DNA of 21,594 bases, taken from IMG/VR virus record IMGVR_UViG_3300025592_000083, positions 1 to 21,594 of that record; one strand, written 5' to 3'. This DNA comes from a virus. Below are positions 3,647-21,146 of the stretch, one piece after another (within the stretch, counting starts at the first letter, position 1; each line of letters opens with the position of its first letter). Both the position numbers and the translations under genes were made by a program. The notes below the pieces were generated by a model. That model ran no database searches. It saw only the letters and a list, made by a program, of their open reading frames with translations, and was not told the origin of the DNA.

Positions 3647-4132
3647 ATGTATATGAGAGTACGAGATGAAATTAGTGAACTATTACAAGAGTGGTTAAAA
3701 GGAGATGAACCTGCTATAGAGTTCTGTAAGTTAATATTAGAGGTAGTAGGTACTTGGGATGATTTAATCGACAAAGATAAGTATACTCCCACAGGTATGG
3801 ATATATCAAACGCGTTTTCATTACTACTAATTAAGTTGCCTAACAATCCTTTTTATACTAAGCATAAAGACGATTTACAACCTTTTCTGGAACAGATGGT
3901 ATATGATTGGTTAGCCGCTAACGAGTTAGAAAGACAAAAAGTATTGTTAACTTCTTACTCCTTAAGGCTATCCTACGCTCCAGTATTAGCTAGAGCAGTT
4001 TATTTAATAGGAGGTTTTGAATGGGCCATTTTAGGTGTTCAAGTATTATATAATACTATAACGGGTATAGAAGATTTTAATAAATACACTAAAGAACATA
4101 GTTCTGAAGAGATAAAAAAAGGGGAAGTATAA
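3647..4132 (+). CDS. Unrecognised small protein between the I-like and J-like genes
   Basis: 161 residues from the ATG at 3647; a GTG at 3596 would add 17 residues and overlap the I-like gene. The protein looks mainly alpha-helical and soluble. It has an acidic N-terminal helix, a segment TWDDLIDKDKYTP (about 36-48), LPNNPFYTKHKDD (about 64-76), and a hydrophobic helix pair near residues 110-140. No catalytic motif or signal peptide is visible. Lambda has no gene between I and J, so this is an added member of the tail-tip operon. Its stop overlaps the J-like start as TAATG, indicating translational coupling. It could be a tail-tip assembly helper or a moron gene; I do not recognise the family and give no function. 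Confidence 0.8.
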   Translation: MYMRVRDEISELLQEWLKGDEPAIEFCKLILEVVGTWDDLIDKDKYTPTGMDISNAFSLLLIKLPNNPFYTKHKDDLQPFLEQMVYDWLAANELERQKVLLTSYSLRLSYAPVLARAVYLIGGFEWAILGVQVLYNTITGIEDFNKYTKEHSSEEIKKGEV

Positions 4133-6738
4133 TGTGTTGCGGCGGCGGCGGCGGTGGTTCAGCAGCAGTAGAAGCAGATAATACACTATTCTCGGCTTCA
4201 AAAGCAAAAATAATAGATCTAGTATCTGAGGGAGAAATTCAAGGTTTAGTAAACGGTAATAAATCTATATATATAGACAAAGTACCTCTACAAGCTGCAG
4301 ATGAATCTTTTAACTTCGAAGGAGTATCTGTAGAGTATAGAACAGGTGTACTAGATCAGTCTTATATAAAAGGATTTGAAGGTTCTGCCTCGGAGGTTAC
4401 TACTAGTTTTGGTGATTTAGATGCGAATACTATGTATAACAAAAGTATTACGAGTGCTAGTAACTTAGATGCAGTTAGAATAACTATATCTGTAGATAGT
4501 TTATCTAAACAAGAAATGGATAGTGGGGACTTAAATGGTTATAAAATTGAGTTTGAGATACATATTAGTAATAGTAGTATCCCAACAAGTAGTTCTAGCA
4601 CTAAAGTAGGAGGGACTAAATCCTTTTCTGGTAAGACAAACAAAAAGTACGAAAGGTCTTATAGAATAGATGTACCGGAGAATATAAAGGGCAGCCCTAC
4701 TATATATGTGGGAGTAAAAAGAACTACAGCAGTTGCAGGGACAGCTAATATTAGTGACTCCCTATACTGGAGGTCTTATACAAGAATAATAGATAATAAA
4801 TTTAGGTACCCGCATAGTGCCATAGTTGCTATGAAACTAGACTCAAAACAGTTCGATAATGTACCTACCAGAGGTTTTGAGGTAAAAGGTATAAAAGTAA
4901 AGGTACCTAGCAACTATACCCCTTATGACCAGGGACACTGTAGTATTCCGGAGTATAGAAGAAGAGGTACTTGTATTGATGCAGGAGGAACCTGGGAGGG
5001 AACTGTTCCTGGTAGTAACCTGTATTCGGGCTATTGGGATGGTACTTTTAAAAGTCAAAAACAGTGGACTTGCAATCCTGCATGGATTCTATATGATATA
5101 TGTACTAACACAAGATATGGGTTAGGGAGATGGTTAGAGACACATAATATAGATAAGTGGTCCTTATACGAAGTAGCAAAGTATTGTGATGCGGTAGATT
5201 CAAGTGGTGATTTTATAGGGGTAGAGGACGGATGGGGCGAAGGAGGTAAAGAAGCCCGATTTACTTGTAATATGTATATTCAAGGATCCATTGAGGCATA
5301 TAAATTAGTAAACGATATAGCCTCAACCTTTAGAGGTATGTTATACTGGCAACAGGGTCAAATTACCTCCGTTCAAGATGTACAGAAAGATCCTGTAATG
5401 TTGTTTAATAAAGCCAACGTAATTGATGGTCAATTTAACTACGAAGGGGTTTCAAAGAAGAAAAGACACAATGTAGCCCATGTAACCTGGAATAACCCAG
5501 AAGATTTCTATAATAAAAATGTAGAGTATGTTGAAGATGCTGAGGCTATAGCTTCCTTTAATAATCAGTTAGTAGTAAAAAGTATAAATGCAGTAGGCTG
5601 TACGTCTAAAGGACAAGCTCGCAGGGTTGGTCAGTGGCTTTTGTATACTGAAAAGTATGAGACGGAAATTGTATCATTTAAGACAGGTTTAGAGGGGTTA
5701 AGTATACGTCCTGGGGATATTATAAAAGTTGCAGACTCAACAAAGTCTGGAGTAAGATATGGTGGCAGAGTTTCAAATAATTATGATAATACTACTACGT
5801 CGGTGGGTATAGATAGTTATATAGATTTAGTTGTAAACCATACCTATAATCTATCCTTAATTAATACAGAAGAAGCTTGTATTAATAGTTCTGGAATTAA
5901 AGTAATAAACACTCCAAAGTGTATTGATACTAATGGTAATAATATTACGGAACCATATGGGGACTATAGCACTTGCACTGCTGCAGGAGGGACTTGGTTA
6001 AGTGATCCTAAAGAGCTATGTTTAACTACCTCGGACAACGATTGGAAGCCTTATATATGGGTAGAGACAAAACCTCTTAGCACTCTTAGTAACTCTTTAA
6101 GCACTAATATTATAGAGTTAGATCAAAGCTTTAGTAGTAACCCTTCTGGAGAATACTCTTGGATTCTAGAGGATACAACTAGTAATTCGGAAGTGGTTGC
6201 ACAAACCTTTAGAGTATTATCTATTCGGGAGAGTGCTAAAAATGTAGTAGAAATATCAGCCTTAAAACATCACAGTGCTAAGTATAATTATATAGAACGA
6301 GGCACTAGTTTCTCTACAAAAAATGTTAGTATACTACCGAGTCCTAGTAGTTTAGTACCCGCCCCTGTAAATATTGATATAGCCGAAGAACTGTACCTTA
6401 CTTCTAATAATTCCATTAGAAATAGAGGTTTTATATCTTGGTGCCCTTCCGGAGTATCTGGGAGTTCCTGTGATGTGGGCGTTATCTACAGTTATACACA
6501 AAGTTATTTTGTTAAGTATAGAAAGGACCAAGGAAACTGGGTAAATTTAGGAGAAACTTCCAGTACTGGGATAGTTATTGAGGATGCTCCTGCAGGAGAC
6601 TATGAAGTTATGGTAAAGACTATATCTATTACAGGAAAACAGTCTTCCTATACTTCTTTTAGTACTTCTTTACTAGGAAAAACTGCCCCACCTACTAACG
6701 TTATTTCTAATAACATAGAGATACAAGTAATACCTTAA
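4132..6738 (+). CDS. J: J-like tail tip / host specificity hub protein
   Basis: 868 residues. The N-terminus (MCC plus a run of six glycines, then AKIIDLVSEGEIQGLVNG) and the body closely track lambda gpJ: SLYWRSYTRIID, YPHSAIVAMKLDSKQF, VPSNYTP, YSGYWDGTFK, NTRYGLGRWL, DKWSLYEVAKYCD, and VGCTSKGQARRVGQWLL near 488-504. gpJ forms the trimeric tail hub and, in its distal part, the receptor-binding tip. This protein is shorter than lambda gpJ (about 1132 residues as I recall), ending after one FN3-like domain (about 745-850) and what looks like the first strand of another. Two cysteine-rich inserts are present: C270/C281 with CIDAGGTW exactly between VPSNYTP and YSGYWDG, and C583/C597/C615 with CTAAGGTW and C630. 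Receptor binding is probably done by later gene products. Confidence 0.9.
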   Translation: MCCGGGGGGSAAVEADNTLFSASKAKIIDLVSEGEIQGLVNGNKSIYIDKVPLQAADESFNFEGVSVEYRTGVLDQSYIKGFEGSASEVTTSFGDLDANTMYNKSITSASNLDAVRITISVDSLSKQEMDSGDLNGYKIEFEIHISNSSIPTSSSSTKVGGTKSFSGKTNKKYERSYRIDVPENIKGSPTIYVGVKRTTAVAGTANISDSLYWRSYTRIIDNKFRYPHSAIVAMKLDSKQFDNVPTRGFEVKGIKVKVPSNYTPYDQGHCSIPEYRRRGTCIDAGGTWEGTVPGSNLYSGYWDGTFKSQKQWTCNPAWILYDICTNTRYGLGRWLETHNIDKWSLYEVAKYCDAVDSSGDFIGVEDGWGEGGKEARFTCNMYIQGSIEAYKLVNDIASTFRGMLYWQQGQITSVQDVQKDPVMLFNKANVIDGQFNYEGVSKKKRHNVAHVTWNNPEDFYNKNVEYVEDAEAIASFNNQLVVKSINAVGCTSKGQARRVGQWLLYTEKYETEIVSFKTGLEGLSIRPGDIIKVADSTKSGVRYGGRVSNNYDNTTTSVGIDSYIDLVVNHTYNLSLINTEEACINSSGIKVINTPKCIDTNGNNITEPYGDYSTCTAAGGTWLSDPKELCLTTSDNDWKPYIWVETKPLSTLSNSLSTNIIELDQSFSSNPSGEYSWILEDTTSNSEVVAQTFRVLSIRESAKNVVEISALKHHSAKYNYIERGTSFSTKNVSILPSPSSLVPAPVNIDIAEELYLTSNNSIRNRGFISWCPSGVSGSSCDVGVIYSYTQSYFVKYRKDQGNWVNLGETSSTGIVIEDAPAGDYEVMVKTISITGKQSSYTSFSTSLLGKTAPPTNVISNNIEIQVIP

Positions 6739-14200: not shown

Positions 14201-17200
14201 ATGTCAACATTAAAAGTTAATACTTTAGATACATATTCAGGAAGTACTTTAGATATAGATAGTACTTCAGATTTAACCGTTAGCAGTAATACTACTGCTA
14301 CTAGCACAACTTCAGGAGCTTTAAGAGTTACTGGAGGTATTTCAACACAAGAGAACCTATACGTTGGGGGTAATGCTGTAATTAATGGCACTATGACCGC
14401 CAATGGAGGTACCATCACGTTAGGGGACGCTGGGTCCGATCAGATAGCTTTTGGAGGTGAAATTAACTCAAGTATTTTACCTACTACTACTGCAACTTAT
14501 GACCTAGGATCTGCCTCAAAATCTTGGGCAGGCTTATACGTTAATACTATTAATGGTAACGTAACAGGTGATGTAACAGGTGATGTAACAGGTAATGTAA
14601 CAGGTAATGTAACAGGAGATGTAACAGGAGATGTAACGGGGGATGTAACAGGTAACGCAGACACAGCTACTAAAACATCTAATGCTCGTACTATAGGTAT
14701 GACGGGTGATGTAGTTTGGACCTCCGCAGCCTTTGATGGTTCAGGTAATGTTACAGGTACCGCATCCATCCAGAACGATTCAGTAGCTTTAGGTACTCAG
14801 ACTACAGGTAATTACATGAGTAATGTAGCTGCAGGTACTGGCGTATCTATAACACATACTCCAGGAGAGGGCTCAACTGCATCCGTGTCTATAGGACAAG
14901 CAGTTGGGACTACTGATGACGTCACCTTTAATGCAGTAACTGTAGATGGTGACCTCACTGTTAATGGTACTACTAACTCCGTAAACTCTACGGAAGTTAA
15001 CATTGGTGACTCTACTATTACATTAAATGCGGGAGAGTCAGGTGCCCCCACTCAAAACGGAGGTTTTGAGATTGAGCGAGGTACTGCTACTAATAAATCA
15101 TTCCTTTGGAATGAATCTGTAGATAAGTGGACTGTAGGATCTGAAACTCTTACTGCAGATACTTTTGAAGGTGCTTTAACAGGTGATGTAACAGGCGATG
15201 TAACAGGTAATGTAACTGGTGCCTTGTCTGGTAACTCTACTACTGCCACAGCTTTAGAAACGGGACGTACTGTAGGTATGACGGGTGATGTAGTTTGGAC
15301 CTCCGCAGCCTTTAACGGTTCGGGTAACGTTACAGGTACAGCTACTATTCAACCAAATTCAGTTTCTTTAGGTACTCAAACTAGTGGTTCATATGTTAGT
15401 AATGGTACTACTGCAGGCATTGGTTTATCTGGTACCGTAGATCAGGAAAATGGTACTTTTACAGTAACTTCAAATGCTACTCCAAATAATACAGCTAGTG
15501 CTTTAGTATCTAGAGACGCTTTAGGTAACTTTACTGCTTCTACTATTACAAGTGCTTTAACAGGTGATGTAACAGGTGATGTAACAGGTAATGTAACAGG
15601 TAATGTAACGGGAAGTTCTGGTTCTTGTACTGGAAACGCTGCAACTACTTCTAAACTATCTACCCCTAGAACTATATCTTTAGGAGGTACAGGAAGTGAC
15701 TTATCAGGTTCCGTTGCTTTTGATGGATCTACTAATGTAGCTATTAATGCGCAGATTAATAATGGAGCTATTGGAAATACAGAGTTAGATAATACTGCGG
15801 ATGTTACCTTTAATACTGTAACTGCTAGCATTTCAGGTGATGTAACAGGTAACGCAGACACAGCTACTAAAACATCTAATGCTCGTACTATAGGTATGTC
15901 AGGAGACGTAGTTTGGACCTCTGCAGCCTTTGATGGTTCTGGTAATGTTACAGGCGTAGCAACTATTCAACCTAATTCCGTAACTATAGGTACAGATACT
16001 ACAGGTAACTATACTAACTCGGTGGCTGCAGGTACGGGAGTATCTATAGCAGGTGGAACGGGTGAAGGTAACAATCCTATAGTCTCTATAGGACAATCAG
16101 TAGGTACTACAGATAATGTAGCATTCAATTCTTTAGTTCTTGCGGGAGATCTTACTGTTAATGGTACAACAACTACCGTTAATACAGAGACTATCTCTTT
16201 AGCTGATAATATTATACTTATCAATGGAAATGCTTCAGGGACTCCTACGGAGAATGGAGGTATTGAGATTGAGCGAGGTACTGCTGCTAATAAATCCTTC
16301 CTTTGGGATGAGTCTCTAGATAAGTGGACTGTAGGATCTGAAACTCTTACTGCAGATACTTTTGAAGGTGCTTTAACAGGTGATGTAACAGGCGATGTAA
16401 CAGGTAATGTAACTGGTGCCTTGTCTGGTAACTCTACTACTGCCACAGCTTTAGAAACGGGACGTACTGTAGGTATGACGGGTGATGTAGTTTGGACCTC
16501 CGCAGCCTTTAACGGTTCGGGTAACGTTACAGGTACAGCTACTATTCAACCAAATTCAGTTTCTTTAGGTACTCAAACTAGTGGTTCATATGTTAGTAAT
16601 GGTACTACTGCAGGCATTGGTTTATCTGGTACCGTAGATCAGGAAAATGGTACTTTTACAGTAACTTCAAATGCTACTCCAAATAATACAGCTAGTGCTT
16701 TAGTATCTAGAGACGCTTTAGGTAACTTTACTGCTTCTACTATTACAAGTGCTTTAACAGGTGATGTAACAGGTGATGTAACAGGTAATGTAACAGGTAA
16801 TGTAACGGGAAGTTCTGGTTCTTGTACTGGAAACGCTGCAACTACTTCTAAACTATCTACCCCTAGAACTATATCTTTAGGAGGTACAGGAAGTGACTTA
16901 TCAGGTTCCGTTGCTTTTGATGGATCTACTAATGTAGCTATTAATGCGCAGATTAATAATGGAGCTATTGGAAATACAGAGTTAGATAATACTGCGGATG
17001 TTACCTTTAATACTGTAACTGCTAGCATTTCAGGTGATGTAACAGGTAACGCAGACACAGCTACTAAAACATCTAATGCTCGTACTATAGGTATGTCAGG
17101 AGACGTAGTTTGGACCTCTGCAGCCTTTGATGGTTCTGGTAATGTTACAGGCGTAGCAACTATTCAACCTAATTCCGTAACTATAGGTACAGATACTACA

Positions 17201-18424
17201 GGTAACTATACTAACTCGGTGGCTGCAGGTACGGGAGTATCTATAGCAGGTGGAACGGGTGAAGGTAACAATCCTATAGTCTCTATAGGACAATCAGTAG
17301 GTACTACAGATAATGTAGCATTCAATTCTTTAGTTCTTGCGGGAGATCTTACTGTTAATGGTACAACAACTACCGTTAATACAGAGACTATCTCTTTAGC
17401 TGATAATATTATACTTATCAATGGAAATGCTTCAGGGACTCCTACGGAGAATGGAGGTATTGAGATTGAGCGAGGTACTGCTGCTAATAAATCCTTCCTT
17501 TGGGATGAGTCTCTAGATAAGTGGACTGTAGGATCTGAAACTCTTACTGCAGATACTTTTGAAGGTGCTTTAACAGGTGATGTAACAGGTGCTGTAACAG
17601 GTGATGTAACAGGTGATCTTACAGGTAACGTAACAGGTGATGTAACAGGTGATGTAACAGGTAATGCAGACACAGCATCTACTTTAACTACTGCACGTAC
17701 TATTGGTGGGGTATCCTTTAACGGCTCTACTAATATTAACCTACCAGGTGTTAATGCTACAGGTAACCAAGATACTACAGGAAGTGCAGCTACTTTAACT
17801 ACTGCACGTACTATTGGCGGGGTATCCTTTAACGGCTCTACTAATATTAACCTACCAGGTGTTAATGCTACAGGTAACCAAGATACTACAGGAAGTGCAA
17901 GTACTTTAACTACTGCACGTACTATTGGCGGGGTATCCTTTAACGGCTCTACTAATATTAACCTACCAGGTGTTAATGCTACAGGTAACCAAGATACTAC
18001 AGGAACCTCATTTAAATCTTCCAAGTTAGAAACTGCTAGAACTATTAGTGGTGTATCCTTTGACGGTACTTCTAATATTAGTTTAGATAATGTTTATAAT
18101 CGTAGAGTTCAGAATAGTATAACGGCTAGTACAGCTTCTACAGCTATTGACTTCAACTCTGCTAGTAACTTTTACCTAAACCTAAGCTCTAATACTACTT
18201 TTAGCCTTTCTAACACTGCAAATAATATAGGGCTCTCAGGAATGATTATCCTTAAGCAAGATGCAACAGGGGGTCGAAGCTTTACGCTACCGTCCTCTAT
18301 GAAGACACCTTTAGGAGGTGCTGCTATTGACCAAGAGACTAGTGCAAGTAATACTGCTATTCTTTCATACTATATAGCTGCCTCCGATACAATTCTTGTG
18401 AATTATATCGGAGACTTCGCATGA
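14201..18424 (+). CDS. Giant repetitive tail fibre protein, 1407 residues
   Basis: AGGAG at 14191-14195 precedes the ATG. The N-terminal part has GALRVTGGISTQEN, shared with the S74 fibre, and YDLGSASKSWAGLYVNTI. The body alternates TGDV/TGNV tetrapeptide runs with domains carrying TIGMTGDVVWTSAAF, DGDLTVNGTT, GGFEIERGTATNKSFLW and DKWTVGSETL. A 399-residue unit is duplicated exactly (about residues 307-1130 with the partial third copy). A third, diverged copy of its second half lies before the pair. Near the C-terminus three 37-residue units (TLTTARTIGGVSFNGSTNI...) follow each other. The last 100 residues are non-repetitive (SGMIILKQDATGG...ILVNYIGDFA) and resemble the caps of other environmental phage fibres. 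No S74 domain is present. Probably a long trimeric side or tip fibre; it overlaps the next gene by ATGA. Confidence 0.82.
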   Translation: MSTLKVNTLDTYSGSTLDIDSTSDLTVSSNTTATSTTSGALRVTGGISTQENLYVGGNAVINGTMTANGGTITLGDAGSDQIAFGGEINSSILPTTTATYDLGSASKSWAGLYVNTINGNVTGDVTGDVTGNVTGNVTGDVTGDVTGDVTGNADTATKTSNARTIGMTGDVVWTSAAFDGSGNVTGTASIQNDSVALGTQTTGNYMSNVAAGTGVSITHTPGEGSTASVSIGQAVGTTDDVTFNAVTVDGDLTVNGTTNSVNSTEVNIGDSTITLNAGESGAPTQNGGFEIERGTATNKSFLWNESVDKWTVGSETLTADTFEGALTGDVTGDVTGNVTGALSGNSTTATALETGRTVGMTGDVVWTSAAFNGSGNVTGTATIQPNSVSLGTQTSGSYVSNGTTAGIGLSGTVDQENGTFTVTSNATPNNTASALVSRDALGNFTASTITSALTGDVTGDVTGNVTGNVTGSSGSCTGNAATTSKLSTPRTISLGGTGSDLSGSVAFDGSTNVAINAQINNGAIGNTELDNTADVTFNTVTASISGDVTGNADTATKTSNARTIGMSGDVVWTSAAFDGSGNVTGVATIQPNSVTIGTDTTGNYTNSVAAGTGVSIAGGTGEGNNPIVSIGQSVGTTDNVAFNSLVLAGDLTVNGTTTTVNTETISLADNIILINGNASGTPTENGGIEIERGTAANKSFLWDESLDKWTVGSETLTADTFEGALTGDVTGDVTGNVTGALSGNSTTATALETGRTVGMTGDVVWTSAAFNGSGNVTGTATIQPNSVSLGTQTSGSYVSNGTTAGIGLSGTVDQENGTFTVTSNATPNNTASALVSRDALGNFTASTITSALTGDVTGDVTGNVTGNVTGSSGSCTGNAATTSKLSTPRTISLGGTGSDLSGSVAFDGSTNVAINAQINNGAIGNTELDNTADVTFNTVTASISGDVTGNADTATKTSNARTIGMSGDVVWTSAAFDGSGNVTGVATIQPNSVTIGTDTTGNYTNSVAAGTGVSIAGGTGEGNNPIVSIGQSVGTTDNVAFNSLVLAGDLTVNGTTTTVNTETISLADNIILINGNASGTPTENGGIEIERGTAANKSFLWDESLDKWTVGSETLTADTFEGALTGDVTGAVTGDVTGDLTGNVTGDVTGDVTGNADTASTLTTARTIGGVSFNGSTNINLPGVNATGNQDTTGSAATLTTARTIGGVSFNGSTNINLPGVNATGNQDTTGSASTLTTARTIGGVSFNGSTNINLPGVNATGNQDTTGTSFKSSKLETARTISGVSFDGTSNISLDNVYNRRVQNSITASTASTAIDFNSASNFYLNLSSNTTFSLSNTANNIGLSGMIILKQDATGGRSFTLPSSMKTPLGGAAIDQETSASNTAILSYYIAASDTILVNYIGDFA
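14555..14650 (+). repeat. Array of 12-bp units encoding G(D/N)VT
   Basis: Eight in-frame units, each GGN (A/G)AY GTA AC(A/G), encode GNVT or GDVT. Shorter arrays of the same unit recur at about 15180-15215, 15558-15610, 16377-16412, 16755-16807 and 17576-17659 within the same gene, marking the joints between larger domains. Synonymous third bases in the Gly codon differ between units. Confidence 0.85.
15120..17589 (+). repeat. Exact in-frame 1197-bp tandem duplication inside the fibre gene
   Basis: Bases 15120-16392 equal 16317-17589, a 1273-base match at an offset of 1197 bases (399 codons). I compared the two copies line by line and found no difference. The first base outside on each side differs (15119/16316 and 16393/17590). 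The 76 bases at 16317-16392 therefore occur three times (15120, 16317, 17514). The lack of even synonymous change indicates a very recent duplication, active gene conversion, or an assembly artefact. Confidence 0.92.
17681..18013 (+). repeat. Three 111-bp tandem units near the fibre C-terminus
   Basis: Units start at 17681, 17792 and 17903 with nearly identical DNA (small differences such as GGTGGG versus GGCGGG) and encode 37-residue repeats beginning TLTTARTIGG. A diverged fourth unit follows (ETARTISGVSFDGTSNI). Confidence 0.88.
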
Positions 18425-20142
18425 TATGGAATATAGAATCTTGGAATACCTCAGTAAATACGGATAGAAGTACCAATACAGTATATAACACTAGTAAGAG
18501 TACTACAACGACTTGGAATACTAGTAAGAGTACTACTACTACGTATAATACAAGTAGGAGTACTAGTAAGAGTACTATTACCGTATGGAGCACTAGTAAG
18601 AGTACTTCTACTACATATGCAACTAATAGAAGTACTACAACGACTTGGAATACTAGTCATAATACAACTACTACGTATGCGACTAGTAAGAGTACAACTA
18701 CTACGTATGCTACCAATAAGAGTACTACAACAACTTGGAATACTAGTCGTTCAACTAGTAAGAGTACTACTACTACGTATGCTACTAGTAAGAGTACTGC
18801 GACTACGTATGCGACTAGTAAGAGTACAACTACTACGTATGCTACCAATAAGAGTACTACAACAACTTGGAATACTAGCCACACAACTAGTAAGAGTACT
18901 ACAACGACTTGGAACACTAGTCATAATACTACAACGACTTGGAACACTAGTAAGAGTACAACTACTACGTATGCTACCAATAAGAGTACTACAACAACTT
19001 GGAATACTAGTCGTTCAACTAGTAAGAGTACTACAACGACTTGGAACACTAGTCATAATACTACAACGACTTGGAACACTAGTAAGAGTACAACTACTAC
19101 GTATGCTACCAATAAGAGTACTACAACAATTTGGAATACTAGTCACACAACTAGTAAGAGTACTACCACGACTTGGAATACAAGTAAGAGTACAACTACT
19201 ACGTATGCAACTAGTAAGAGTACAACAACTGCTTGGAGTACCTCTTATAGTACCAACTATGAAGACTATGTATCAGATGGGTACGCCTCTGCAGGTTATT
19301 GGGTAAGTACTAGTAGAAGTACTAGTCACACAACTAGTAAGAGTACTACCACGACTTGGAATACAAGTAAGAGTACAACTACTACGTATGCAACTAGTAA
19401 GAGTACAACAACTGCTTGGACTACAACGTATGCTACCAATAGAAGTACTACAACGACTTGGAATACTAGTAAGAGTACTACCACGACTTGGAATACAAGT
19501 AAGAGTACAACTACTACGTATGCAACTAGTAAGAGTACAACAACTGCTTGGACTACAACGTATGCTACCAATAGAAGTACTACAACGACTTGGAATACTA
19601 GTAAGAGTACTACCACGACTTGGAATACAAGTAAGAGTACAACTACTACGTATGCAACTAGTAAGAGTACAACAACTGCTTGGACTACAACGTATGCTAC
19701 CAATAGAAGTACTACAACGACTTGGAATACTAGTAAGAGTACTACAACAACCTGGAATACTAGTCATAATACTATAACTACGTATAATACTAATCATAGT
19801 ACAACGACTGCTTGGACTACCACGTATGCTACCAATAGAAGTACTACAACGACTTGGAATACTAGTAAGAGTACTACAACAACTTGGAATACTAGTAAGA
19901 GTACAACTACTACGTATGCAACTAGTAAGAGTACTACAACGACTTGGAATACTAGTCATAATACTACTACTACATTTAATACTGAGCGTATAACTACAAC
20001 GACTTGGACTACTACGTATGCTACTAGTCATAATACTACAACGACTTGGAGTACTAATAAGAGTACTACAACAACTTGGAGTACTAATCATAGTACTACT
20101 ACTAGTTGGATTACACAAAGGTCTACTAACTATTATATGTAA
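18421..20142 (+). CDS. Thr/Ser decapeptide repeat protein, 573 residues
   Basis: Starts in an ATGA overlap with the giant fibre gene. After 18 residues the protein is almost entirely decapeptides of the type STTTTWNTSK or STTTTYATSK, with one aromatic residue (W, Y or rarely F) per unit and a charged or His residue at the end. The consensus unit is seven-tenths Ser/Thr. Four-residue half units (STSK, TTSK) and 14-residue units (STTTAWTTTYATNR) interrupt the period. One non-repetitive island (residues 280-296, YEDYVSDGYASAGYWVS) contains the only glycines I see. No signal peptide, membrane segment or catalytic motif is visible. The regular aromatic spacing suggests a beta-solenoid or fibrous trimer, plausibly a phage fibre shaft or surface decoration. 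A terminator follows directly. Function is unknown; context makes a virion protein most likely. Confidence 0.75.
   Translation: MIWNIESWNTSVNTDRSTNTVYNTSKSTTTTWNTSKSTTTTYNTSRSTSKSTITVWSTSKSTSTTYATNRSTTTTWNTSHNTTTTYATSKSTTTTYATNKSTTTTWNTSRSTSKSTTTTYATSKSTATTYATSKSTTTTYATNKSTTTTWNTSHTTSKSTTTTWNTSHNTTTTWNTSKSTTTTYATNKSTTTTWNTSRSTSKSTTTTWNTSHNTTTTWNTSKSTTTTYATNKSTTTIWNTSHTTSKSTTTTWNTSKSTTTTYATSKSTTTAWSTSYSTNYEDYVSDGYASAGYWVSTSRSTSHTTSKSTTTTWNTSKSTTTTYATSKSTTTAWTTTYATNRSTTTTWNTSKSTTTTWNTSKSTTTTYATSKSTTTAWTTTYATNRSTTTTWNTSKSTTTTWNTSKSTTTTYATSKSTTTAWTTTYATNRSTTTTWNTSKSTTTTWNTSHNTITTYNTNHSTTTAWTTTYATNRSTTTTWNTSKSTTTTWNTSKSTTTTYATSKSTTTTWNTSHNTTTTFNTERITTTTWTTTYATSHNTTTTWSTNKSTTTTWSTNHSTTTSWITQRSTNYYM
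18469..20130 (+). repeat. 30-bp coding repeats with 132-bp super-repeats
   Basis: The basic unit is 30 bases (AGTACTACAACGACTTGG followed by AATACTAGTAAG) with a characteristic order of Thr codons. Two different arrangements both recur every 132 bases: matching points at 18829, 18961 and 19093, and again at 19402, 19534 and 19666. Each corresponds to 44 residues, made as 10+10+4+10+10 in the first and 14+10+10+10 in the second. Confidence 0.85.
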
Positions 20143-20148
20143 AAGCTG

Positions 20149-20180
20149 TAGTGGTGCAGAAATGCACCACTATATTTTAA
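20149..20180 (+). terminator. Rho-independent terminator after the repeat-protein gene
   Basis: TAGTGGTGCA (20149-20158) pairs perfectly with TGCACCACTA (20163-20172) across a GAAA tetraloop, followed by TATTTTAA. It lies six bases after the stop codon, closing the long fibre operon just before the next promoter. Confidence 0.85.
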
Positions 20181-20187
20181 ATAGTAC

Positions 20188-20216
20188 TTGACTTTTTAGG
20201 TTATAATTGTTATAAT
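20188..20216 (+). promoter_or_regulatory. Sigma-70-type promoter upstream of the glycosyltransferase-like gene
   Basis: TTGACT (20188-20193), a 17-base spacer, and TATAAT (20211-20216). It has the same -35, spacing and -10 as the promoter at 10366-10394, and both have a C before the -35 and a second GTTATA-like element inside the spacer. With the terminator immediately upstream, it defines a separate transcription unit. Confidence 0.8.
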
Positions 20217-20249
20217 ATGTTTTTCTAATAATTAAAAAGGATCTAGCAA

Positions 20250-21146
20250 ATGGAAATGTTTAATAAAAAGTCTCAATCTGAAAGAATAGGGGATGAACTA
20301 AAAAAGAGTAGTTCTCTAGACCCTCTAAAAGAGGTAGAAAGATACTTTCTTAAGAAGATGCGACAATATAAAACAGAGGCTTCCTATGATGTTATAGCAA
20401 ATGAAACCCCTTATTTTAGAACTATAAATTATACTGAGTATGCCAATTGTTTTATTATACACCCTCTGTGTCAGGACTTACGAGTTCAGCAAATGAGAGA
20501 TGCGTATAATGATAATACAACAAATACTCTAGACTACATTAAATACTTCAAGTCCAATATATTAGAGAACAAATCTAATAAATATAAAGATAGAGAGGAT
20601 TTAGATTTAGAAGCTAAAAGTGCTTTGGTAGTCTTAGTAGGTTCTAATAAACTTAAAGACCGAGTCTGTTTAAATAAACTTAGCTGGATAAAAGATAACT
20701 ATGATGATGATGTGTATTTTAAACCCCACCCTCTAACGTATCATACGTTAATAGGAGAATTAAAAGACATATTTGGTGAGGATAAGATATTACCTAGAGA
20801 GGCTAATATGTACTCTCTCATGTTAAAATCAGATATAGTATACACTTCACATATGAGTGAATCAGCTATCTATGCAACAGCATTAAATAAAGAAATTAAC
20901 CCAATAGATGTATATAACAAAGTAGAGCAAGGTTCTTTTTATCATATAAATAAGTTCTTATTTATAGAAAATGATCCACAGACGTGGGTAAATAGAACGT
21001 TCTCTAGTTATAAATCAGGTATTATTAACCCAGTACTGAACAAAGACTGGAAAAGTTCAATAGACAATTACCTTGAATACATTCACGAAGTACGTGACAT
21101 GTATAAGGATTTTTACATTGAAGAATTAAAGAAGGATAAAAAATAA
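20250..21146 (+). CDS. Putative GT-B-like glycosyltransferase
   Basis: 298 residues; AAGGA at 20237-20241 supports the ATG at 20250 (a second ATG lies two codons on). The protein is soluble, Lys/Asp/Asn-rich, without signal peptide. Residues 155-162 (VYFKPHPL) give the K-x-HP motif seen in GT-B-type transferases of surface polysaccharides such as sialyltransferases, capsule enzymes and CDP-glycerol polymerases. Residues 193-211 (KSDIVYTSHMSESAIYATA) match the following acceptor/donor-site pattern of a strand, then Ser-rich loop, then helix. An acidic D/E-D/E-G motif known from polysialyltransferases was not found, so the substrate and even activity are uncertain. It sits alone with an S74 protein behind its own promoter, directly after the Ser/Thr repeat gene. 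It could modify the host surface, a fibre, or be a moron gene. Confidence 0.6.
   Translation: MEMFNKKSQSERIGDELKKSSSLDPLKEVERYFLKKMRQYKTEASYDVIANETPYFRTINYTEYANCFIIHPLCQDLRVQQMRDAYNDNTTNTLDYIKYFKSNILENKSNKYKDREDLDLEAKSALVVLVGSNKLKDRVCLNKLSWIKDNYDDDVYFKPHPLTYHTLIGELKDIFGEDKILPREANMYSLMLKSDIVYTSHMSESAIYATALNKEINPIDVYNKVEQGSFYHINKFLFIENDPQTWVNRTFSSYKSGIINPVLNKDWKSSIDNYLEYIHEVRDMYKDFYIEELKKDKK

Follow-up and report, generated by a model that had tools for sequence, protein, structure and literature searches.

The IMG/VR virus record IMGVR_UViG_3300025592_000083 was analyzed over positions 1 to 21,594, and this whole stretch of 21,594 nucleotides (nt) is called the window here. Two adjacent genes in it are our subject: one encodes a Ser/Thr-rich repeat protein of 573 amino acids (aa), and the next encodes a putative glycosyltransferase (GT) of 298 aa. 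The window is a tail-region fragment of a marine, siphovirus-type virus, with fibre genes on the 3' side of the tail genes; the end of the tape measure gene is followed by lambda L-, K-, I-, and J-like genes (PHROG matches phrog_18, phrog_30, phrog_32, and phrog_31) and then by the fibres. The open reading frame (ORF) of the 1407-aa fibre and that of the repeat protein share an ATGA overlap. An earlier reading of the letters by a model, here called the original prediction, had placed a terminator and a separate promoter ahead of the enzyme gene. Both features were found again: the hairpin has a folding energy of -19.3 kcal/mol (z, -5.7), and the promoter-like site resembles the sigma-70 consensus, although promoter-like sites overall are no more frequent in the window than in shuffled sequence.

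Table 1. Features at the 3' side of the window (window coordinates)
Feature	Position	Strand	Basis
Tail-fibre protein, 1407 aa	14201..18424	+	PHROG tail fibre matches; C-terminus conserved among relatives
Ser/Thr repeat protein, 573 aa, decapeptide W/Y-x-T-S-K-S-T-T-T-T; proposed glycosyl acceptor and fibre	18421..20142	+	Composition, repeats, upstream counterparts
Intrinsic-terminator-like hairpin between repeat gene and enzyme gene	20147..20174	+	12 pairs, GAAA loop, T run
Sigma-70-like promoter ahead of enzyme gene, TTGACT-17-TATAAT, extended TG	20188..20216	+	Consensus match alone, 11/12
GT-B glycosyltransferase-like protein, 298 aa, phrog_26179	20250..21146	+	PHROG, alignment, AlphaFold2, structure searches
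S74 intramolecular chaperone domain ORF, fibre-type, 128 aa	21148..21534	+	Pfam PF13884, 2.7e-10

The repeat protein is 62.1% Ser plus Thr (256 Thr and 100 Ser), with 34 Trp, 28 Tyr, and no Leu, Pro, or Cys. By this composition (0 Leu, 0 Pro), it contains neither an LPXTG motif nor a typical hydrophobic secretion signal. Exact units of the form [WY]xTxx[SN]Txxx followed by the next aromatic residue occur 39 times, and the most frequent of them, WNTSKSTTTT (12 copies), is Ser/Thr at 7 of 10 positions, just as the original prediction had described units of seven-tenths Ser/Thr with a single aromatic residue. Tandem Repeats Finder detected the array at many periods (30, 60, and 132 bp; top score, 1065). 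Aromatic residues recur at +10 at 6.3 times the chance frequency, as well as at +20 and +14. Pfam and PHROG searches with this protein gave zero matches.

What the array keeps most strictly is Thr at +2 and +6 of the aromatic residue, rather than a general richness in Ser and Thr. Position +2 in the window is Thr in 90% of cases and +6 in 89% (Ser, 5% and 2%); Ser is found at +3 in 59% and at +5 in 67% (Thr, 10% and 3%). Averaged over 31 proteins from different viruses, position +2 is Thr in 76% versus Ser in 5%. Among related loci (designated by L numbers), the L006 array has Thr at +2 in 129/129 cases, and the arrays of L132 and L135 are nearly without Ser yet keep Thr at this position (70% and 86%). 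Because the Thr codons of the array vary (ACT, ACC, and ACA) and the Ser codon AGT is one base off ACT, the Thr pattern looks selected. Given this strictness across arrays, Thr is therefore likely the functional residue, whether its part is to accept a sugar or to build the structure. N-glycosylation sequons were considered as the conserved feature, N-T-S being common in the window, and were rejected; a stretch of L006 is nearly free of Asn and has 100% Thr at +2.

The original prediction had also proposed that the two genes are functionally linked and had named their co-occurrence in related phages as a check. A close search with the enzyme returned five contigs, and a Ser/Thr array lay upstream of the enzyme in 5/5 of them. 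Conversely, a scan for the array pattern in DNA, made independently of the enzyme, yielded 29 repeat loci with enough downstream sequence, and 26 of these contain the enzyme. The three others are L071, which stops inside the next gene, L058, in which the downstream genes are on the opposite strand, and L014, which has a different, shorter repeat. Eighty loci came from a profile search with the enzyme. Near-duplicates were removed at 88% identity. Scoring as positive any ORF of at least 35% Ser plus Thr on the same strand within 2.6 kb upstream, we found one for 49/54 non-redundant enzyme genes versus 8/516 other ORFs of the same loci (Fisher P = 2e-56, with loci treated as independent although the phages are related). 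The downstream side had such an ORF in 0/52 cases, and in the enzyme-derived loci alone, with the window left out, the upstream count was 31/36. Of the five negatives, three have weaker arrays, namely, Cr30 (27% Ser plus Thr), L194 (33%), and L201 (TSKSTSRSTSRST), and the other two, the jumbo-phage records L184 and L187, have none. In most loci, the enzyme starts 0 to 125 nt past the repeat gene.

The spread over phage types is a stronger argument than these statistics. At roughly 20 to 28% enzyme identity, the pair is kept in KVP40 (KVP40.0254, phrog_30374), the Caulobacter podovirus Lullwater, and Vibrio phage F86, so that it occurs in siphoviruses, podoviruses (Lullwater), and myoviruses (KVP40 and, weakly, Cr30). 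Both genes are annotated as hypothetical wherever they are annotated, and in L204 (Vibrio phage F86, about 3840-4395), two tiny coding sequences are annotated in place of the KVP40.0254-type Ser/Thr ORF. Stenotrophomonas phage DLP6 and L200 have a remote enzyme homologue and no clear repeat array. When reference phages were searched by tblastn with the repeat protein, there were no matches, which is what the low-complexity filter of BLAST would lead one to expect. A scan of bacterial genomes gave one match, a contig of a metagenome-assembled genome whose fibre-like and repeat genes resemble the phage ones, and no cellular version was found. A literature search, with most subscription journals outside its reach, found no paper describing the pair.

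For the enzyme, Pfam matched no family to the 298-aa protein, and weak matches to polysialyltransferase, GT52, and Capsule_synth families appeared in single or few relatives. In an alignment of 57 relatives, D47, K111, Y112, G131, N133, K158, H160, P161, E204, and G257 are invariant. The K-x-HP and Ser-loop pattern of the original prediction corresponds to K-P-H-P at 158-161, with K, H, and P invariant in 57/57, and to a conserved T/S-x-x-S-E loop at 199-204. The AlphaFold2 (AF2) model built on this alignment has a predicted local distance difference test score (pLDDT) of 94.9 and a predicted template modelling score of 0.91, and it confidently predicts a GT-B fold with two Rossmann-like domains, as the original prediction had proposed. 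The best PDB matches in Foldseek were transferases of 3-deoxy-D-manno-oct-2-ulosonic acid (Kdo), which use cytidine monophosphate (CMP)-Kdo: WbbB with CMP-beta-Kdo (9.8e-6), KrkA (1.2e-4), and KpsC (5.4e-4). VIA-align ranked the same enzymes first (Z for best chains, KpsC 10.5, WbbB 10.4, and KrkA 9.5), followed by GT-B enzymes using thymidine diphosphate sugars near 9.3 and the bacterial polysialyltransferase 5wc6 at 9.2. In total, 60 PDB chains reached a Z of at least 8, and the matches of both programs are GT-B enzymes; the aligned span is about 190 to 226 residues for the Kdo enzymes and about 110 to 130 for other structural matches.

Two motifs point the same way. (K/R)xHP is the CMP-binding motif common to sialyl- and retaining Kdo transferases, and QxxxD is the nucleophile motif of the Kdo transferases (PMC12887879); in KpsC, a Lys133-Tyr134 pair lies 23 residues ahead of the Q of QxxxD (PMC10148158). 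The 298-aa enzyme has the (K/R)xHP motif of CMP-ulosonate transferases. It also has the Lys-Tyr pair of retaining Kdo transferases, with K111-Y112 invariant in 57/57 and 22 residues ahead of N133, and by this spacing we infer that the pair is equivalent to that of KpsC. These active-site equivalences were set by motif order and spacing rather than by superposition on PDB coordinates. In its mode of action, the modelled enzyme thus looks like a CMP-Kdo or other ulosonate transferase.

Sugar genes surround the pair in other loci. GT8-like, GT29-like (sialyltransferase), GT4-like, Anp1-like, and DUF4422 proteins are encoded beside it, and genes for a cupin, methyltransferases, and a GDSL hydrolase occur there too. 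The genes of L180 run in the order fibre, short ORF, repeat, enzyme, cupin, methyltransferase, an ORF without assignment, KdsB, and KdsA, with KdsB in the NCBIfam subfamily PRK05450 (215 bits; cut-off, 193) and KdsA in TIGR01362 (362 bits; cut-off, 314). L162 has the order repeat, enzyme, cupin, methyltransferase, and KdsA. L216 has KdsA-like (PF00793 match) and KdsB-like (by sequence) genes next to each other, in an island of 9 kb that lies between the enzyme and the tail sheath. Elsewhere in their records, L165 and L172 have the order cupin, KdsB, methyltransferase, and KdsA, and the L128 record has cupin and KdsA. These kdsA/kdsB genes weigh more than they otherwise would, since Kdo had already been indicated by the fold when the neighbours were examined. 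A small cupin also recurs by kdsA and/or kdsB in L209 (3271-5561), L210 (3656-5940), L217 (3012-4337, minus strand), and L180 (8901-11831), and it perhaps belongs to the Kdo pathway or modifies it.

We therefore read the pair as a phage module of two genes that O-glycosylates a virion fibre in the cytoplasm, with a Kdo-like acidic sugar placed on Thr, and give this reading a probability of roughly 0.63. Of the refuting conditions named with the original prediction, the two open to computation (the fold of the 298-aa protein and the co-occurrence of the genes) both turned out in its favour. Genomics strongly supports the link of the putative acceptor with the enzyme; the acceptor role of the repeat protein, the sugar donor, the location in the virion, and the benefit we infer. 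In this scheme, the repeat protein would be made together with the tail fibres and would offer dense Thr acceptors, one of them two residues past each aromatic or basic residue. In the infected cell, a soluble GT-B enzyme would load a CMP-activated acidic keto-sugar on its KxHP site, the donor most likely being CMP-Kdo or a related ulosonate from host or phage kdsA/kdsB. The Thr residues of the array would then be glycosylated before or during tail assembly, and in some relatives, transferases of the GT8, GT29, GT4, and DUF4422 types, methyltransferases, and an aminotransferase may elaborate or cap the sugar. The product would be an anionic, hydrated, mucin-like coat or a receptor-reaching fibre, with shielding, adhesion, and receptor mimicry as candidate benefits. 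The hosts of such phages are presumably mostly Gram-negative and CMP-Kdo producers, which would be why just some of the phages carry kdsA/kdsB. The most specific version, a module widespread among sipho-, podo-, and myoviruses in which a Thr-array fibre carries O-linked Kdo and the GT-B enzyme has kept a CMP-Kdo site and lost the covalent nucleophile, is more speculative, and we consider it less likely than not. To our knowledge, Kdo is not known as a protein modification.

Several observations weigh against the module as we read it. N133 is invariant where the Q of QxxxD is expected, and the residue at +4 from it is D/E in just 29/57 sequences, so the Asp nucleophile is unconserved; because of this, we keep the enzyme outside GT99, GT107, and GT140. 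By count alone, the association with kdsA/kdsB is not significant: the KdsA family is present in just 6/54 module-bearing records versus 0/20 controls (P = 0.18), and a CMP-sugar synthetase is present in 5/25 versus 0/20 records (P = 0.056). The arrays of Lullwater and Cr30 are short and less regular. Two jumbo-phage records (L184 and L187) contain the enzyme but lack a Ser/Thr array; there it could possibly act on a different acceptor. Lastly, the AF2 model of the repeat protein, built from 9 homologues, has a pLDDT of 37, too low to interpret, and thus leaves room for a purely structural role of Thr.

The original prediction had offered, as an equal alternative, that the enzyme alters the host surface. 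In its fuller form, the repeat protein would be a receptor-binding fibre for a host glycan and the enzyme would change that glycan (e.g., Kdo of the lipopolysaccharide [LPS] core), stopping superinfection or the loss of progeny on debris, so that the genes are linked via the receptor rather than as acceptor and enzyme. Such a pair would also co-occur, a Kdo-type fold and kdsA/kdsB would suit LPS or capsule chemistry, the enzyme's own promoter and terminator are as expected for a separately timed gene, and the two jumbo records with an enzyme and no array fit as well. However, the enzyme follows closely on the repeat gene in a tail-gene setting in three virion types, and the Thr rule is left unexplained, since a binding fibre has no obvious need for position-wise Thr in a degenerate array of variable length. 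We consider this explanation unlikely and no longer the equal of glycosylation of the fibre.

About as improbable is a structural fibre in which the array forms a beta-rich shaft with the large residues and Thr on one face and Ser, Asn, and Ala on the other, and the enzyme modifies a few sites or another part of the virion. Apart from Ser, Thr, Ala, Gly, and Asn, the residues do stand almost only at even spacings (4, 6, 10, and 14), with an even/odd ratio for non-Ser/Thr residues of 3.4 in the window and 58 in L006, and the L135 array alternates strictly (TxTxRxTxTxF). The AF2 model shows weak strands of about 7 residues with a period of 10, but its confidence is too low to rely on. By itself, a shaft does not explain the neighbouring transferase, and it is compatible with sparse or dense glycosylation. 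Finally, that the two genes were co-inherited without a functional link, or that the enzyme is not a sugar transferase, is very improbable: the tail region is mosaic, no family member is characterized, and the Pfam matches to GT families are weak and rare, but the pair persists at 20 to 25% enzyme identity in unrelated phage types while other neighbours change, and the confident GT-B model with an invariant CMP-binding motif speaks for a transferase.

Around the pair, further features recur. Upstream of their repeat gene, L004, L008, L041/L084, L132, L135, and L098 share a segment of the 1407-aa fibre's C-terminus (...ILSYYIAASDTILVNYIGDFA). Within the fibre gene itself, about 1.2 kb is nearly duplicated (14637-16405 versus 15834-17602; offset, 1197 bp), with long near-identical stretches. 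In several relatives with two arrays, the C-terminus of the first Ser/Thr protein is intein/Hint-like (DVFYANGILTHN; L083:5039-6748, L145:6347-7429, L143:2580-3731, L010:5264-8713, and L025:6319-9186), for which fibre self-cleavage is a possible function. Directly 3' of the enzyme, an S74-type ORF is present in L004 (PF13884) and L129 (by sequence) as in the window, where we count it as a neighbour rather than as an established member of the module. In many marine loci (L032/L034/L042-L044/L083/L102/L127), this place is taken by a conserved coiled-coil-like ORF of 75 to 91 aa and an ORF of 72 to 77 aa (MKLIRKISIGKDYKNDAMHYSVGQEVYGGHTI). In KVP40, a coiled-coil-like ORF sits between the array and the enzyme, and in L184 (7614-8819) and L187 (7563-8780), the enzyme lies behind a coiled-coil-like gene, and the records encode a CMP-sugar synthetase (PF02348) at another site.

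Glycosylation of phage proteins is known from few cases, such as the capsids and tail tubes of mycobacteriophages. Here, a putative acceptor and its enzyme stay together in phages of three tail types and of several hosts (Vibrio, Caulobacter, and unknown marine hosts), which suggests that many phages may sugar-coat a fibre of their own. The pair yields an acceptor rule at the level of sequence (Thr at +2/+6 of the aromatic residue) and a donor prediction (CMP-Kdo), and laboratory phages carry it, so both are open to testing. Although phage protein glycosylation as such is already known, there is a real chance that Kdo chemistry on protein would be new. If O-linked Kdo is indeed the product, this type of linkage between protein and sugar would be new, the Kdo transferase superfamily would gain a new end, and the array would be a phage mucin, either imitating an LPS-rich host surface or serving as a shield against it.

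Among known systems, the serine-rich repeat adhesins of Gram-positive bacteria likewise have a very Ser/Thr-rich repeat protein encoded next to a glycosyltransferase. The phage locus differs in lacking a typical signal, LPXTG, and accessory Sec genes, in its transferase type, in its tail context, and in having Thr rather than Ser as the strict residue. KpsC (GT107), WbbB (GT99), and KrkA (GT140) resemble the phage enzyme as its best structural matches, in K-x-H-P and K-Y spacing, and through the kdsA/kdsB genes alongside it in some loci; the phage enzyme, of 298 aa and 10 to 16% identity to them, has Asn for Gln and an unconserved Asp nucleophile, and they act on polysaccharide, whereas its proposed acceptor is protein Thr. 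In the mycobacteriophages Che8, Corndog, and Myrna, phage-encoded transferases glycosylate virion proteins, and the parts described as modified are the C-termini of capsid and tail-tube proteins, with no Ser/Thr decapeptide acceptor gene adjoining the transferase reported in the portions of these articles that were available (PMC12363180 and PMC12619734, citing Freeman et al. 2023). In flagellin O-glycosylation by nonulosonic acids (FlmG and Maf), the soluble enzyme FlmG attaches an acidic keto-sugar to Thr residues of a protein that forms a fibre (PMC7591256). The phage system is phage-encoded and differs in acceptor and enzyme; flagellin is likened to it as a precedent: in both, an acidic keto-sugar would be added in the cytoplasm to Thr or Ser of a fibre-forming protein.

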